From Planctomycetes bacterium RIFCSPLOWO2_12_FULL_40_19 (GTDB lineage Bacteria > Planctomycetota > Brocadiia > Brocadiales > Scalinduaceae), in assembly GCA_001828595.1 (NCBI GenBank), contig MHZA01000030.1:1-34765 (forward strand): a stretch of DNA of 34,765 nt. Reading direction: 5' to 3'. Both the position numbers and the translations under genes were made by a program. Shown here in pieces: positions 5,811 through 18,456 of the stretch. Numbering within the stretch: the first letter of the stretch is position 1; each line of letters starts with the position of its first letter. The notes under the pieces are model-generated. The model was not told the DNA's origin. It worked only from the letters and a program-made list of their open reading frames with translations, and ran no database searches.

Positions 5811-6342
5811 CCTCCATGCGTTTGGTAAGCATAAACGATCATAAAAAAATAATAGTACTTCTAAGAAATAATTCTGTCAAGAGAATCTATATCGATGGGT
5901 TATACATTAATATAAATTTATACTTGAATTAAATAATTACATTTGATATAAGATGGCTGTAAAAGGTTCTGCAGTGTACGTGATAGAAGCAAAATATTTT
6001 TAAAACCTACAAGCGTCTAACAGGGAGCTTTTTTTGGCTGGCCTTTTTCTTTACTTAATGTGGAGAATGGTTAACAAAGGGTGCCCACCTTGAAAAAGGG
6101 TTGACGAAAAAATTCTTCACACGGCATTAGCGGAGCCTTTTATTCTTATATCAATTCTTTCATTCAGTACATTTTAATGCCCACACAAGTACAAAAATGG
6201 TTGCGTAAAACAGGAATGTAAATTCTGTATTAGAGTATACTGCAATCTCACATACCCAGGATTTGAAAATACACTTAATAAAATACTGAAAAAGCAATCA
6301 AAACAGCATCAAAATAATTCCAAAGATTATTATAAAAAGTAC

Positions 6343-13975: not shown

Positions 13976-14214
13976 ATTGAATACTCCACTTTGGGGAACA
14001 TTGACTAACAATAGAAGCTATAACTTTTACTCCCGATTTGGAAAAAGCGCTTTTGTGTTTAATCCAGAAAATATACATAATAGCGCCATATGTCAATAAT
14101 AAACAGATATAAATTTTACGCTTACTTAATGTGGTGCAGTATAAAAAAGGGTTATTCAACATAAATATTTAGTCGTTTACACTATCACTATTATAATCTA
14201 CAATAATGTTAATT

Positions 14215-14292
14215 ATGGACAAATCGTTAGTAGACATATTCTGGGTCTTGATATGGTAAAATCAAACAAAATACAAAAAAAGGGCATAAGAT
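14215..14292 (+). pseudogene. relic of a second Amt-histidine kinase gene (internal deletion)
   Basis: Positions 14215-14255 match the first 41 nt of the intact Amt-HK gene (15943-15983) at 36 of 41 bases. They read MDKSLVDIFWVLIW and then stop, against MDKSSVDIFWVLIC in the intact copy. A few bases later, 14264-14292 aligns without gaps to the last 29 nt before the paralogous response regulator start (17924-17952), with 6 differences, all transitions. A response regulator paralogue follows immediately. The simplest reading is a duplicated Amt-HK/response-regulator unit that lost about 1.9 kb, nearly all of the transporter and kinase. It cannot make a functional protein. Confidence 0.85.
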
Positions 14293-14294
14293 AA

Positions 14295-14690
14295 ATGTCA
14301 AAGGCAAAGATTATGATTGTTGAAGATGAGTGGATTACTGCTGAAGATATAAAAATGAGATTACAGGCTTTGGGATATACTGTTTCCTCCCCGGCATCTA
14401 CAGGAAAGGAAGCGATTCAAAAAGCTAAGGAAGATAAGCCTGATTTAGTGCTGATGGACATTGTGTTAAAAGGTGAGATGGATGGGATTGAAGCGGCAAG
14501 TCAAATCCACACATGTTTGGATATACCCATTATCTATCTGACAGCTTATGCCGATGAAAAGATACTGGATCGGGCAAAAATAACAAAACCGTCTGGATAT
14601 ATCGTCAAGCCTTTTATAGATGAAGACTTGAAAATAGCTATTGAGATAGCTCTTTACAAACACAAGTCCGAAAAAGAAAGAAAAGACTAA
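14295..14690 (+). CDS. CheY-like response regulator, C-terminally interrupted paralogue
   Basis: A 131-residue receiver domain. The acidic pair E10-D11, phosphoacceptor D55 ([14 protein letters not shown]), the switch Thr in YLTAYADEK and the Lys in YIVKPF are all present, so phosphorylation should be possible. It is a clear paralogue of the regulator at 17953-18456, sharing long blocks such as the [10 protein letters not shown] start. The reading frame ends at KERKD where a palindromic repeat begins. Beyond the repeat (about 14716-14735), in a shifted frame, the sequence codes QELRDAI, matching ENLQDAL of the intact paralogue. So the gene was interrupted within its linker. With its kinase partner deleted, it is orphaned. 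It may survive as a receiver-only protein or be decaying. Confidence 0.85.
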
Positions 14691-14715
14691 CCCGCCTGTA
14701 CCTATTCGGGCAGGT
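14690..14715 (+). repeat. 26-bp palindromic repeat, left copy of a perfect inverted pair
   Basis: This 26-nt unit contains CCCGCCTG, ACCTATTCGGG and CAGGT. Its reverse complement is present without a mismatch at 15043-15068. The unit can fold locally (TGTACCT with AGGTACA, 8-nt loop). It overlaps the stop codon of the interrupted response regulator. Confidence 0.9.
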
Positions 14716-14768
14716 ACAAGAACTCCGTGATGCAATCTGTATAGAAGAGTTCCATTCTTGTGTATATG

Positions 14769-15023
14769 CTACCTTTCAGACTTTAAACTGGCTATCTCCT
14801 GTTGCAACTTTTTCAGCTCCATTTCCAACATACCTTTGTGAGCAAGCTCCTGATTAGCAACTTTAATGAACATCCTTCTACTACCCTCATGTTCTATGGA
14901 ATTTGCAAGTTCCAGGTAAAATTTATAACTTGACTCCTCCTTAGGAATTGCAATGATCAATACTTCTACTACTTTTTCAATCTCTTTAATTCGTTCCTGT
15001 AAACTTTTAATTTGATCCTTCAT
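14769..15023 (-). CDS. small ferritin-like/rubrerythrin-type helical protein
   Basis: An 84-residue protein of two long helices: a Lys/Glu-rich coiled-coil N-terminus (1-24), then EESSYKFYLELANSIEHEG (29-47) and FIKVANQELAHKGMLEMELKKL (52-73). The EExxxxFYLELA helix and the ExxH pair (E59, H62 in QELAHKG) resemble one half of a ferritin-like four-helix bundle of the rubrerythrin/DUF-type family. A dimer could therefore build a di-metal site. A strong AAGGAGGG sequence precedes the ATG by 6 nt. It lies on the opposite strand between two perfect 26-bp inverted repeats and beside an interrupted gene, which suggests insertion as a unit. Oxidative or iron stress protection is a family-level guess. 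Confidence 0.7.
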   Translation of the reverse strand: MKDQIKSLQERIKEIEKVVEVLIIAIPKEESSYKFYLELANSIEHEGSRRMFIKVANQELAHKGMLEMELKKLQQEIASLKSER

Positions 15024-15042
15024 AGATCGCCCTCCTTAATTA

Positions 15043-15068
15043 ACCTGCCCGAATAGGTACAGGCGGGT
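15043..15068 (-). repeat. 26-bp palindromic repeat, right inverted copy
   Basis: Perfect reverse complement of 14690-14715. It lies about 7 nt upstream of the Shine-Dalgarno of the ferritin-like gene. Any hairpin formed here would sit in that gene's 5' leader, and any promoter for it must lie within or beyond the repeat. Confidence 0.9.
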
Positions 15069-15092
15069 AAGATAAGAAATCATGACAGTTTT

Positions 15093-15578
15093 TCAATGAG
15101 GCAGTCCGTAAACTAGCTTGCCACCCAAATGCCCCAGATAGCCGACAAGTGGTAAGATGGAAATGTTTAGAATAATGAATACGACATTGAGGACACCTGT
15201 ATTGTCCAGTATCCCGGGGTAAAACCAGTCCCAAGTAGTACATAGTCCCCCAACTAAAATCAATATTCGCCCGTAACGGATTTTGCTAATGAAGATATGT
15301 GTTCTTACACCCCTGTATTTCTTTTTCCACTCATGGATTCCGGTAAAATGTGAAATCGGCGTAAAAAAAGTTGCTATTATCATGAGGTAGAAATATGAAT
15401 TGTGGAATGAATCCTTATCTGAAAGCAGAGCAAGGAAAAGAAAAAAAATCGCTACAGGGTAGAGGGCGGCCGGGAAGTGAACGAACATCGCATGAAAAGG
15501 AATATTAAATAAGCCAATTTTTATTTTTGTCTTTTCTGGAAAGATTTTTTTTAGAATTTCAGCCCAATTTGTTCTCAT
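15093..15578 (-). CDS. DUF2231-type membrane protein
   Basis: A 161-residue protein with four predicted membrane helices. It shows the DUF2231 hallmarks: PFHAMFVHFPAALYP at the first helix and GYLGHLGGKLVYG at the C-terminus, with His residues near the membrane faces (FHAMFVHFP, ISHFTGIHEW). The family is uncharacterised, and its conserved His may bind heme or metal. I prefer the ATG at 15578 over the TTG 6 nt upstream. It lies between the repeat-flanked ferritin-like gene and the Amt-HK gene, on the strand opposite Amt-HK, and may share an operon with the ferritin-like gene downstream. Confidence 0.7.
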   Translation of the reverse strand: MRTNWAEILKKIFPEKTKIKIGLFNIPFHAMFVHFPAALYPVAIFFLFLALLSDKDSFHNSYFYLMIIATFFTPISHFTGIHEWKKKYRGVRTHIFISKIRYGRILILVGGLCTTWDWFYPGILDNTGVLNVVFIILNISILPLVGYLGHLGGKLVYGLPH

Positions 15579-15584
15579 GATCAA

Positions 15585-15942
15585 TTTCAGGTAAAACCTG
15601 TTTTCCCTATTGCTGTTTTTTAATTAAAAAATATTTTACTTAAAAATCCTTTATAAATGTAGTAAAAAACTTATGAGATAGTACGGTAGGCGGGGTGACA
15701 TATTTGTTTTTATATCTCTATGTATCCTGATATTTATTCTTCCAGAAGCAAGAACATAAGCTACTTTTAAAACTTTTTGCGCCTTCGTTGGTAAGTTTTG
15801 AAATTCCGATACCGCAAACTAAACTAATCACGAAAAATTATCTTGCCTTTCTTTCTATGTACCGTTTATCATTATTACTTAAAAGCTAAGGTTACTTGTA
15901 CAGTTAGAATTGTACTACAAAAATAACTATAAGAAGTAAGTA
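15585..15942. other. divergent spacer upstream of Amt-HK
   Basis: An AT-rich spacer between divergent genes, no coding content. A small inverted repeat (GTACA / TGTAC) lies at about 15897-15915, roughly 30 nt before the Amt-HK start, and could be an operator or part of the promoter. A TATAAG word sits at 15928-15933. No well-spaced -35/-10 pair was found. Confidence 0.35.
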
Positions 15943-17949
15943 ATGGACAAATCGTCAGTCGATATCTTTTGGGTCTTGATATGTGCGGGCCTGGTGTTTT
16001 TAATGCAGTCAGGTTTTACTTGTCTGGAGTCTGGACTGACACGGTCAAAGAACAGCATAAACGTTGCCATAAAGAACATAACCGATTTTGGAATATCTAC
16101 CATCTTGTTCTGGGCGATTGGTTTCGCACTGATGTTCGGAACGTCATACAACGCATGGATAGGATCAACAGGATTTCTTTTGCCTCTTGAAGAAGGGACA
16201 TGGCCTACTACATTTTTTCTATTTGAGCTTATGTTCTGTGCCACAGCAGTGACGATTGTCTCAGGAGCCACAGCGGAGCGACTGCGGTTCAGAAGCTACA
16301 TCATCGCATCGATTATACTATCCGGCCTGATATATCCGACCTTTGGTCATTGGGCCTGGAACGGCTCCCAAAATGGTATATCCTCTGGTTGGCTTGGAAT
16401 GTTGGGATTTGTAGATTTCGCCGGTTCAACCGTGGTTCACAGTGTCGGGGGATGGGTTTCCTTAGCAACATTGCTGATTATCGGTCCCCGCGAAGGGCGT
16501 TTCCCTAAGGGTGGAGTTCACAAAAAGATTCATGGCAGCAACCTTCCCTTATCTGTACTAGGCGCATTTCTTCTGTGGAGCGGTTGGTTTGGGTTCAATG
16601 GTGGTAGCACCCTTGCCTTTAACGACAGGGTTGCAGGAATCATTATAAACACATTTTTGGCTGGCTCTACAGGTTCTATGGTTACGCTTGCTATTGGATG
16701 GTTGCTTCGGCGGCGCCCTGATCCAGAACTACTGATCTTCGGTTCTATAGCAGGTCTTGTGGCCATCACTGCCCCGGCACATGCTGTAAATGCAATATCG
16801 GCCATAGCCATCGGAGGAATCGGTGGAATTGTGATGCTAGGTGTGGAATATCTTTTGGAATATCTGCACATCGATGATGCTGTGGGAGCCATTCCCGTGC
16901 ACCTGGGCGCTGGGATCTGGGGCACACTTGCTGTTGCTATCTTTGGCGAAACAGAACTCCTGAACACAGGACTCAATCGTTGGGATCAACTTCTGACACA
17001 GGTTATAGGTATAGGTGTATGCTTCTTATGGACATTCGGCACGTCTTTTTCGTTATTTCTATTAATAAACCGCTTTCTCCCATTTCGAGTTACGCCTGAG
17101 AACGAATATATCGGCCTTAATGTCTCTGAACATGGGGCTACCACAGAACTCCTGGATATGTTCAGGACTATGGATGCACAGGCTAAGACGGGAGACATGA
17201 GTCTCCGTGTACCGGTGGAACCTTTCACGGAGGTTGGCCAGATTGCTGAGCGTTACAACATTGTCATGGATGCCCTTCAGAAAGCTACTGCCAGGACCGA
17301 AGCCTCTCTTGAAGAAAAAGAAGTGCTTCTGCGAGAGATACATCATCGGGTCAAGAACAATATGCAGGTTATTTCCAGCTTGCTTCGGCTTCAGTCCAGA
17401 AATGTCAGGGATGAACAACAGATAGAAATGCTCAAGGAAAGCCAGAACCGAATAAAAGCGATGGCTCTGATTCACGAGAAACTTTACGGGTCAAAAGACC
17501 TGGCAAACATTAATTTCAACGATTACATTAAGAATCTTGTTAATGACTTGTTTTTATCTTATAAGGTGAGTGCTGGCAAAGTCTCACTGAAGATGAATAT
17601 TGAAGCTGTTTCCTTTGGAATTGATACTGCTATACCCTGTGGATTAATAGTCAATGAACTGGTATCCAATTCACTGAAATACGCATTTCCAAAGGGGAAA
17701 GACGGTGAGATTAAAATATCCCTGCATAAAATTGCAGATTTGAAGTCCGACATGTATGAGTTAACAGTCAGCGACAACGGTACCGGTATACCTGGAGATT
17801 TGGATATCAGAAAGACCGAATCTCTAGGGTTACGGCTGATTACAAATTTAGCTGAAAATCAACTTCAGGGCAAAGTTGAACTAAACAGAAACGAAGGAAC
17901 AGAATTTCAAATTAAATTCAAGGAAGCAAAATATAAAGAAAGGATATAA
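15943..17949 (+). CDS. ammonium transporter-histidine kinase fusion (ammonium sensor kinase)
   Basis: A 668-residue fusion. Residues 1-385 are an Amt/AmtB domain: FGHWAWNG (134-141), D158 and H166 in VDFAGSTVVHSVGG, WSGWFGFNGGS (212-222), and the second pore histidine H320 in IPVHLGAGIWG, so the twin-His pair is retained. Residues about 400-460 form a linker helix with HAMP-like character (MSLRVPVEPFTEVGQIAERYN). A HisKA_2-type kinase follows: EIHHRVKNNMQ with phospho-His at H467/H468, N-box NELVSNSLKYAF (571-582) and G-box DNGTGIP (611-617). Amt-fused kinases of this kind are known from anammox bacteria (Kuenenia Amt5). The response regulator begins 3 nt downstream, so the pair is a two-component system responding to external ammonium. 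Confidence 0.96.
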   Translation: MDKSSVDIFWVLICAGLVFLMQSGFTCLESGLTRSKNSINVAIKNITDFGISTILFWAIGFALMFGTSYNAWIGSTGFLLPLEEGTWPTTFFLFELMFCATAVTIVSGATAERLRFRSYIIASIILSGLIYPTFGHWAWNGSQNGISSGWLGMLGFVDFAGSTVVHSVGGWVSLATLLIIGPREGRFPKGGVHKKIHGSNLPLSVLGAFLLWSGWFGFNGGSTLAFNDRVAGIIINTFLAGSTGSMVTLAIGWLLRRRPDPELLIFGSIAGLVAITAPAHAVNAISAIAIGGIGGIVMLGVEYLLEYLHIDDAVGAIPVHLGAGIWGTLAVAIFGETELLNTGLNRWDQLLTQVIGIGVCFLWTFGTSFSLFLLINRFLPFRVTPENEYIGLNVSEHGATTELLDMFRTMDAQAKTGDMSLRVPVEPFTEVGQIAERYNIVMDALQKATARTEASLEEKEVLLREIHHRVKNNMQVISSLLRLQSRNVRDEQQIEMLKESQNRIKAMALIHEKLYGSKDLANINFNDYIKNLVNDLFLSYKVSAGKVSLKMNIEAVSFGIDTAIPCGLIVNELVSNSLKYAFPKGKDGEIKISLHKIADLKSDMYELTVSDNGTGIPGDLDIRKTESLGLRLITNLAENQLQGKVELNRNEGTEFQIKFKEAKYKERI

Positions 17950-17952
17950 GAC

Positions 17953-18456
17953 ATGACAAAGGCAAAAATTATGATTGTAGAAGATGAATGGGTTACTGCT
18001 GACGATATTAGGATGTGCTTGCAGAGTTTGGGATATACAGTTACCTCTGTAACGTCTTCGGGAGAAGAAGCTATTCAAAAGGCAGAGAATGATAGGCCGG
18101 ATTTAGTGCTAATGGACATTATGTTAAAGGGTGAGATGGATGGGATTGAAGCAGCCAGACAAATCCGTTCTTGCTATGGCATACCTATTGTCTATCTCAC
18201 CGCTTATGCCGATGAAAAGATACTGGAGCGGGCCAGTATAACAGAACCATTTGGATATATTGTTAAGCCTTTTGTAAACGAAGACTTAAAGATAGCAATC
18301 GAAATAGCCCTTTACAAGCATAGAGTAGAAAAAGAAAGAAAGAGGCTCATTGAAAACCTCCAGGATGCACTCCCCAGGATCACGACATTATCAGGCTTAC
18401 TCCCCATCTGCCCTTCCTGCAAAAAGATACGAGATGCCGAAGGTAATTGGAAATAA
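17953..18456 (+). CDS. response regulator partner of Amt-HK, truncated Cys-motif tail
   Basis: A 167-residue protein. Residues 1-125 are a receiver domain with E10-D11, phosphoacceptor D55 ([14 protein letters not shown]), YLTAYADEK and the Lys of YIVKPF. A helical linker ([16 protein letters not shown]) leads to [22 protein letters not shown] and stop. That tail is the beginning of a motif I know from many bacterial regulators and PAS-GGDEF proteins, where CxxCKKIRD is followed by a W and some 20 more residues with further His/Cys. Here it ends just after the Trp, so a metal or redox site would be incomplete. The start lies 3 nt after the Amt-HK stop, with AAAGGA as ribosome binding site inside the kinase gene. 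It has no DNA-binding domain, so output is probably by protein or RNA interaction. Confidence 0.9.

Follow-up and report, generated by a model that had tools for sequence, protein, structure and literature searches.

At one locus of an anammox planctomycete, two perfect 26-nt repeats face each other across a single small gene, and the question is whether they are the ends of a unit that carries the gene, the arms of a segment that can invert, or copies of something that moves independently of the gene. The first two possibilities had been put forward in a sequence-only reading of this DNA. We have examined the repeats in the whole 34,765-nt stretch in which they lie (the window; G000:C30:1-34765), in the genome to which it belongs (G000; 2.12 Mb in 174 contigs, 88% complete), and in related genomes. 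The two repeats of the window are two separate insertions of one dispersed 24-nt mobile element.

The repeat pair and its genes

Both the sequence itself and a repeat search place two identical, oppositely oriented 26-mers at 14690-14715 (minus strand) and 15043-15068 (plus strand), with 327 nt between them, as the sequence-only reading had described; in the repeat search, each extends to 29 nt with one mismatch. Within the 26-mers lie exact copies of a 24-nt unit, one at 14691-14714 on the minus strand, 3' of the enclosed gene, and the other at 15044-15067 on the plus strand, between that gene and its 5' neighbour, each with one A/T flanking base on either side. These flanking bases are common to the two sites because the target preference of the element is A^T, such that the 26-mer is made up of the 24-nt unit together with an A and a T that the targets at the two sites happen to have in common. 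The target flanks before insertion, taken from the empty sites in the relatives G002 and G003, are CTAA at 14687-14690 (TTAG in the orientation of the element) and TAAG at 15068-15071.

The enclosed gene, which had been called ferritin-like, is a rubrerythrin-like ORF of 84 aa (14769-15023, minus strand) that matches PF02915 at 31.1 bits (cut-off 22.8) and has no NCBIfam match; AAGGAGGGCG stands 5' of its ATG. With orthologues in relatives, it is a resident of the locus rather than cargo. On its 5' side is a gene for a DUF2231 membrane protein (15093-15584, minus strand; PF09990), the DNA of which also aligns upstream in relatives, and on its 3' side is a response-regulator ORF of 131 aa (14295-14690, plus strand; PF00072, 73.7 bits), with the 24-nt unit at 14691 beginning straight after the TAA stop.

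The sequence-only reading had also reported an interrupted gene next to the pair. There is indeed a truncated duplicate, but it is separate from the repeats, and the response-regulator ORF at 14295-14690 is intact. The stretch 14208-14569 is a partial tandem duplicate of 15936-18227, which encodes an ammonium transporter-histidine kinase fusion and a response regulator. The upstream duplicate retains about the first 48 nt around the transporter start (14208-14255, plus strand; 83% identity to 15936-15983) along with a response regulator (14270-14569, which matches the one at 17928-18227 with 79% identity). At the Rfam gathering threshold no RNA family falls on the repeat, and the sole match in the window is a 6S RNA gene elsewhere (5963-6140, plus strand; RF00013, 66.8 bits).

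Empty sites in relatives

Orthologues of the 84-aa protein occur in G002 and G003 (99% and 93% protein identity), in G005, G007, G008, G010 and G016 (70-74%) and in G015 (49%). In alignments, the DNA of the upstream DUF2231 gene still adjoins the gene in G002, G003, G005, G007, G008, G010 and G016, and G002 and G003 have the response-regulator gene downstream in the same arrangement as G000. Both repeats of the window are absent from G002 and G003: at the 15044 site the two genomes read continuously through TTAATTAA|TAAGAT, and at the 14691 site, which is likewise empty in both, G002 runs unbroken through CTTGTA|TTAGTC and G003 has a 1-nt indel close by. The aligned intergenic regions of G005, G007, G008, G010 and G016 also lack the 15044 copy. 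G002 has a copy of its own at GTATA|GAAG, 29 nt from the downstream site of the window, that is absent from G000 and G003. Alignment of the window with the corresponding stretch of G002 (L131) also revealed a 93-nt segment that is present in G000, missing from G002, and bordered by the direct repeat CAAAAATATC.

These comparisons bear on the possibility that the 26-mers are the terminal repeats of a gene cassette or MITE, whose enclosed gene moves with a transposase acting in trans. A perfect inverted pair around a single gene is the arrangement that recommends such a reading. However, the gene and its upstream neighbour are in place in relatives that lack the repeats, and therefore the gene has not moved as a cassette; it is a bystander. 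For each repeat there is a separate empty site that is shorter by 24 nt, and there is no target duplication. When the gene and both repeats were considered as members of one cassette that should be absent together, G002 and G003 were found to have the gene and to lack the repeats.

The pairing itself is less striking when set against the number of copies. Chance alone, with 64 copies spread over 2.12 Mb, would bring 0.76 pairs of copies to within 400 nt, whatever their orientation. Three were observed (Poisson p 0.04), namely the inverted pair of the window, one direct pair and one head-to-tail tandem. No other two of the 64 copies of G000 form an inverted pair within 1 kb, which again speaks against a cassette. 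A single pair of 26-mers is not a matter of base-level chance, yet it is close to the expectation from copy number. The 26-mer is common as single copies and gene order is conserved, which is the combination that the sequence-only reading had itself set against a cassette; what survives of its proposal is that the repeats are mobile. A cassette is, in our view, hardly credible.

Recombination between the inverted copies, which would flip the gene, had been offered as the second possibility, and perfect 26-bp inverted copies 327 nt apart could in principle recombine. But the orientation of the gene relative to its neighbours is unchanged in G002 and G003, both of which lack the copies, and a scan of five neighbouring ORFs turned up no recombinase. 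The palindromic copies are independent, as this proposal supposed, with no sign of inversion, and we regard an invertible segment as extremely unlikely.

The reading of the two repeats as separate insertions can be extended beyond the window. Comparisons of G000 with G002 and G003 were made on stretches of the genomes rather than on whole genomes, and 37 comparisons of a copy with a genome passed (15 empty, 13 occupied, 7 other and 2 both). With sites inside repeated families left out, eight polymorphic sites were aligned, without junction gaps between G000 and G002 or G003 and with a unit of exactly 24 nt at each; the G002 site that lies 29 nt from a window site is one of them. The copy is in G000 at both window sites (15044 and 14691), L162, L142 and L145 (compared with L098), and in G002 at L171, L265 and L099/L261. 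Variants of the core occur at L162 (3 differences) and at L171 and L265 (one difference each). Target bases are neither repeated nor lost at any of the eight. A copy in murG (L141/L078) is the one site occupied in both genomes.

Gap lengths give a similar picture. In 39 alignments of G000 with G002 or G003, the gaps of 14-400 nt include 24-nt gaps at five independent sites, all belonging to the 24-nt family; gaps of 27 nt occur at two sites with unlike sequences, one of which contains Ns, and other lengths occur once each. In the comparison of L229 with L256/L078, G000 has a 27-nt GC-rich palindromic insertion, CCCGCCCGGCAATGCCGTCCGGACGGG, that is not in G002 and may hint at further tiny mobile families; other hairpins with similar ends were seen as well.

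Anatomy and target of the 24-nt unit

The unit is 24 nt long, CCTGCCCGAATAGGTACAGGCGGG or a near variant, with imperfect 6-bp inverted ends around a 12-nt centre. Its insertion is exact, with neither target duplication nor deletion, takes place in either orientation, and occurs in intergenic DNA, inside other palindromes (including those of its own kind) and in frame inside genes. The flanks of 92 site clusters define a target preference of A^TARGC, with A at -1 in 57 clusters, T at +1 in 45, A at +2 in 57, G at +4 in 58 and C at +5 in 46. The G at +4 compares with a background of 0.196 (p=1e-19), and it persists outside GC-rich palindromes (31 of 52 clusters, p=2e-10). The commonest right flanks among the 92 clusters are TAAG (10), TTAG (6), TAGC (5) and TAGG (5), and all of the nine named sites (the eight polymorphic ones and murG) except L099 have G at +4. 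We are highly confident of the anatomy and the mobility of this element.

Its two boundaries resemble one another: the left end of the element is ^CCTGC and the target at the right junction is ^TARGC, both of which fit ^NNNGC. Read on the other strand, the boundaries are GCYTA^[CCCGCC...GGGCAGG^]. One strand can form a stem of 6 bp, including a G-T pair, with a 12-nt loop, and the other 7 pairs with a bulge and an 8-nt loop; the predicted stability of these DNA hairpins is not greater than that of shuffled sequences (z -0.22 and -0.60).

Some copies are seated in loops of other palindromes, at times in the middle of older copies of their own kind, raising the possibility that the element invades the single-stranded loops of cruciforms rather than a sequence. 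Copies do occur at or near the tips of other palindromes, and 33 of 91 site clusters fall in a predicted hairpin loop; but so do 470 of 1816 shifted control positions (26%), which makes the predicted enrichment modest. Moreover, the sequence preference persists outside GC-rich palindromes, and only one of the two sites in the window is predicted to fall in a loop, that of a weak structure (-1.3 kcal/mol). We therefore consider loops improbable as the primary target. In composite GC-rich arrays (L013, L015, L023, L029, L032, L038 and others) the 24-mer is nested exactly within an older related repeat, CCTGCCCGAA^TAGGTAC..., and CCCGTCCCCGCCAGAA often follows.

Copies within genes

The screen for intragenic copies drew on 160 collected copies and used those flanked on each side by 300 nt or more. 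Twenty-two copies (that in murG counted once per genome) are in ORFs of at least 200 aa, and 21 of these are read through, the remaining one being in an ORF that resembles a transposase by eye; under an earlier limit of 150 aa, 20 of 135 copies were in ORFs. The copies that are in frame include those in pheS, murG, mnmE, glgP and a partial mutL. Five of the six frames of the 24-nt unit are open, and the insert amounts to eight codons, for example PARIGTGG or PACTYSGR.

Seven proteins were scanned with the insert in place. MurG, PheS, MnmE, MutL (the 5' part of which is missing at a contig start) and the glucan phosphorylase pass their NCBIfam cut-offs; the other two, an acyltransferase and an AddB-like nuclease, reach cut-offs in Pfam but none in NCBIfam. 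The copies in pheS, murG, mnmE and mutL show that the repeats also alter proteins.

Copy number and host range

A search of G000 for other copies of the 26-mer, as the sequence-only reading had advised, found 64 at up to 3 mismatches, of which 28 are exact and which are divided 31 to 33 between the strands; the reversed control pattern has 0 copies in G000. For these 64 places, 61 distinct copies were examined together with their flanks. Most of the 64 copies are single units rather than inverted doublets.

Of the 17 genomes of the family, 15 contain the 24-nt core (up to 2 mismatches), copy numbers ranging from 0 to 68 across the 17; none of 42 genomes from elsewhere in the order has it. When 392 genomes were drawn from the phylum, 6 of the 7 family members had the repeat, as against 0 of the 385 others. 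A scan of named genomes returned at least 82 stretches; the matches listed are from Candidatus Scalindua or a Hainich Brocadiaceae bin, with two exceptions, L074, labelled Parcubacteria, and L133, from an uncultured bacterium. L074 (ARS72) has an exact 24-mer and ORFs that resemble type II secretion pseudopilins by eye, and is possibly a mis-binned Scalindua contig. Viral contigs gave 0 exact matches to the repeat. So far, the host range of the family is narrow.

A dispersed sequence of this kind might be maintained by selection as a functional site, such as a terminator, a protein-binding site or an uptake signal. The sequence is rather uniform and many copies are intergenic, and in the window the upstream copy is near a Shine-Dalgarno sequence, and a T-rich stretch follows the downstream copy when read in the direction of the rubrerythrin gene. 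However, in non-repeated DNA there are eight polymorphic positions as against one that is shared, two genomes of the same genus have zero copies, and copies lie inside coding genes and inside each other, none of which favours a conserved function. A terminator scan of 14500-15300 was also empty, although a 12-nt loop exceeds the 8 nt that it allowed. We judge selection for such a function very unlikely.

Search for the mover

IS200/IS605 elements insert without target duplication. The 24-nt unit has this feature, and likewise a preferred short target beside one end and ends that can form a hairpin. Because its like boundary signs fit cutting of the IS200/IS605 type by Y1/HUH enzymes, the logic of which is set out in passages of PMC6006769 and PMC8266576, we propose a Y1-like enzyme acting in trans. 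Such an enzyme would excise the 24-nt hairpin and re-insert it as a single strand, with one cut made 3' of the short flanking target and the other 3' of a like sequence at the end of the element; the ^NNNGC sign at both boundaries would be the common cut signal. A trans-acting, single-strand mover of this kind is the one that we favour, as a tentative suggestion that we hold to be possible. Taken as a whole, independent insertions of a 24-nt element, with a Y1-like mover proposed, are probably the best explanation of the locus.

G000 has one Y1 enzyme of the IS200 type and two of the RAYT type. No copy of the 24-mer occurs within 1.5 kb of these three genes, and the sole copy in wider stretches is about 4 kb off, at a contig end. 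Around the IS200-type gene (L009/L164), nothing nearer than 11 mismatches was found in 5 kb of this 88% complete assembly. The two RAYT genes are flanked by other hairpins of their own. That at L165 (2290-3166; G000:C137) has two kinds of hairpin on both sides, GGTCAGGCA-AGA-TGCCTGACC and CTGAGGCG-TCC-CGCCTCAG, as well as a 94% orthologue in G009, where one of the same hairpins is also present; the L165 locus is likely a REPtron. The second, at L166 (1340-2260; G000:C18), stands amid an abundant family of AT-rich hairpins, TTAAGTCTTTAGACTT / TTAAGGCTTTAGCCTT.

In other genomes, a RAYT-like gene of G002 (L073) has a copy of the 24-mer 56 nt downstream, in the loop of an unrelated palindrome, and one Y1 locus of G007 (L217) has a copy with 3 mismatches. 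Our inspection covered 31 of 184 Y1 matches and seven later stretches, among which no RAYT carries the 24-mer as its own flanking hairpin; nor was a full-length IS200/IS605 element with ends like the 24-mer present near the Y1 genes inspected. Across 17 genomes, the number of Y1 genes does not clearly rise with the number of copies (Spearman coefficient 0.36, p 0.16). The RAYT at L010 has a close orthologue in G009, a fragment in G003 and none in G002, the genome richest in copies. The Y1 loci, the gene numbers and the distribution of this one RAYT did not yield the cognate enzyme. As judged by GC skew, no strand bias was seen (75 of 142 positive, p=0.13), which does not favour lagging-strand targeting. 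The weakness of the hairpin and the lack of space outside its stem for a guide tetranucleotide also count against a Y1-like mover.

The unit could instead be a canonical REP that is mobilised by its own linked RAYT, in the manner of a REPtron. Its size, its dispersed palindromic copies and the lack of target duplication are all in keeping with a REP, G000 has two RAYT genes, and Planctomycetes are among the phyla with tagged REPs according to PMC3733652. But the foot of the hairpin lacks a GT[AG]G or CGTC tag, the flank being mostly TARG or TTAG-like and belonging to the target; a 6-bp stem with a G-T pair and a 12-nt loop departs from the rule for short hairpins of a 7-20 nt stem and a 2-5 nt loop, as worded in a passage of PMC6006769; and none of the RAYT genes inspected is flanked by the 24-mer as a hairpin of its own. 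We consider this alternative unlikely.

The proposal of a Y1-like mover can be taken a step further. The 24-nt sequence alone might be a complete substrate for mobility, with its own hairpin and with GCNNN^ cut signals at both points of cleavage, needing only a single-strand enzyme in trans; it would then rank among the smallest classes of transposable unit and would have become widespread in one anammox family, while also seeding in-frame peptides into core proteins. This broader view we regard as possible, though less likely than not.

Relation to known small repeats

To our knowledge, there is no settled account of how the smallest dispersed repeats move in bacteria. For the CGTC repeats, PMC3733652 states that no dedicated transposase is known. 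The 24-nt family offers a clean case, with a near-uniform unit, both empty and occupied sites, a target preference, like signs at its boundaries and a narrow host range, and the question of mobility can therefore be tested with short oligonucleotides and candidate enzymes.

We file the unit in a loosely defined class of very small mobile repeats, within which we did not find its sequence, host or target described; among the open-access papers listed for palindromic or dispersed repeats of Scalindua and anammox bacteria, there was likewise no description of this repeat. The nearest kind is that of the small dispersed repeats (SDRs) of filamentous cyanobacteria (Elhai et al. 2008), reportedly of about 21-27 nt. 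For SDR5, a passage of PMC4390886 puts the insertion point exactly between the third and fourth nucleotides of the HIP1 octamer. Like the SDRs as there described, the 24-nt unit is very small and dispersed, is judged to be mobile, and inserts exactly in a preferred short target; its 64 copies and its presence or absence as an exact 24-nt unit at eight sites are features of the same type. Unlike the SDRs, it resides in anammox Planctomycetota and its target is A^TARGC rather than HIP1.

REPs and REPINs, going by passages of PMC3733652, PMC3116915, PMC8266576 and PMC6006769, are likewise dispersed palindromes of 20-40 nt that are suspected to be non-autonomous mobile DNA, and RAYT genes are present in the genomes studied here; in contrast to them, the 24-nt unit has no GTAG or CGTC tag, a short stem, a long loop and a mostly single occurrence. 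With the RPEs of Rickettsia, as they appear in the relevant passages of PMC3733652, the unit shares palindromic repeats that lie in frame in protein-coding genes, whereas those repeats end in CGTC and the 24-nt unit, of 8 codons, is untagged and belongs to an environmental anammox lineage. As in the IS200/IS605 elements treated in passages of PMC6006769 and PMC8266576, there is a short preferred flank at one end and a similar sequence at the other, but the unit differs from these elements in being only 24 nt long, and in having no gene, no guide sequence beyond the hairpin and no room outside its stem for a guide tetranucleotide.
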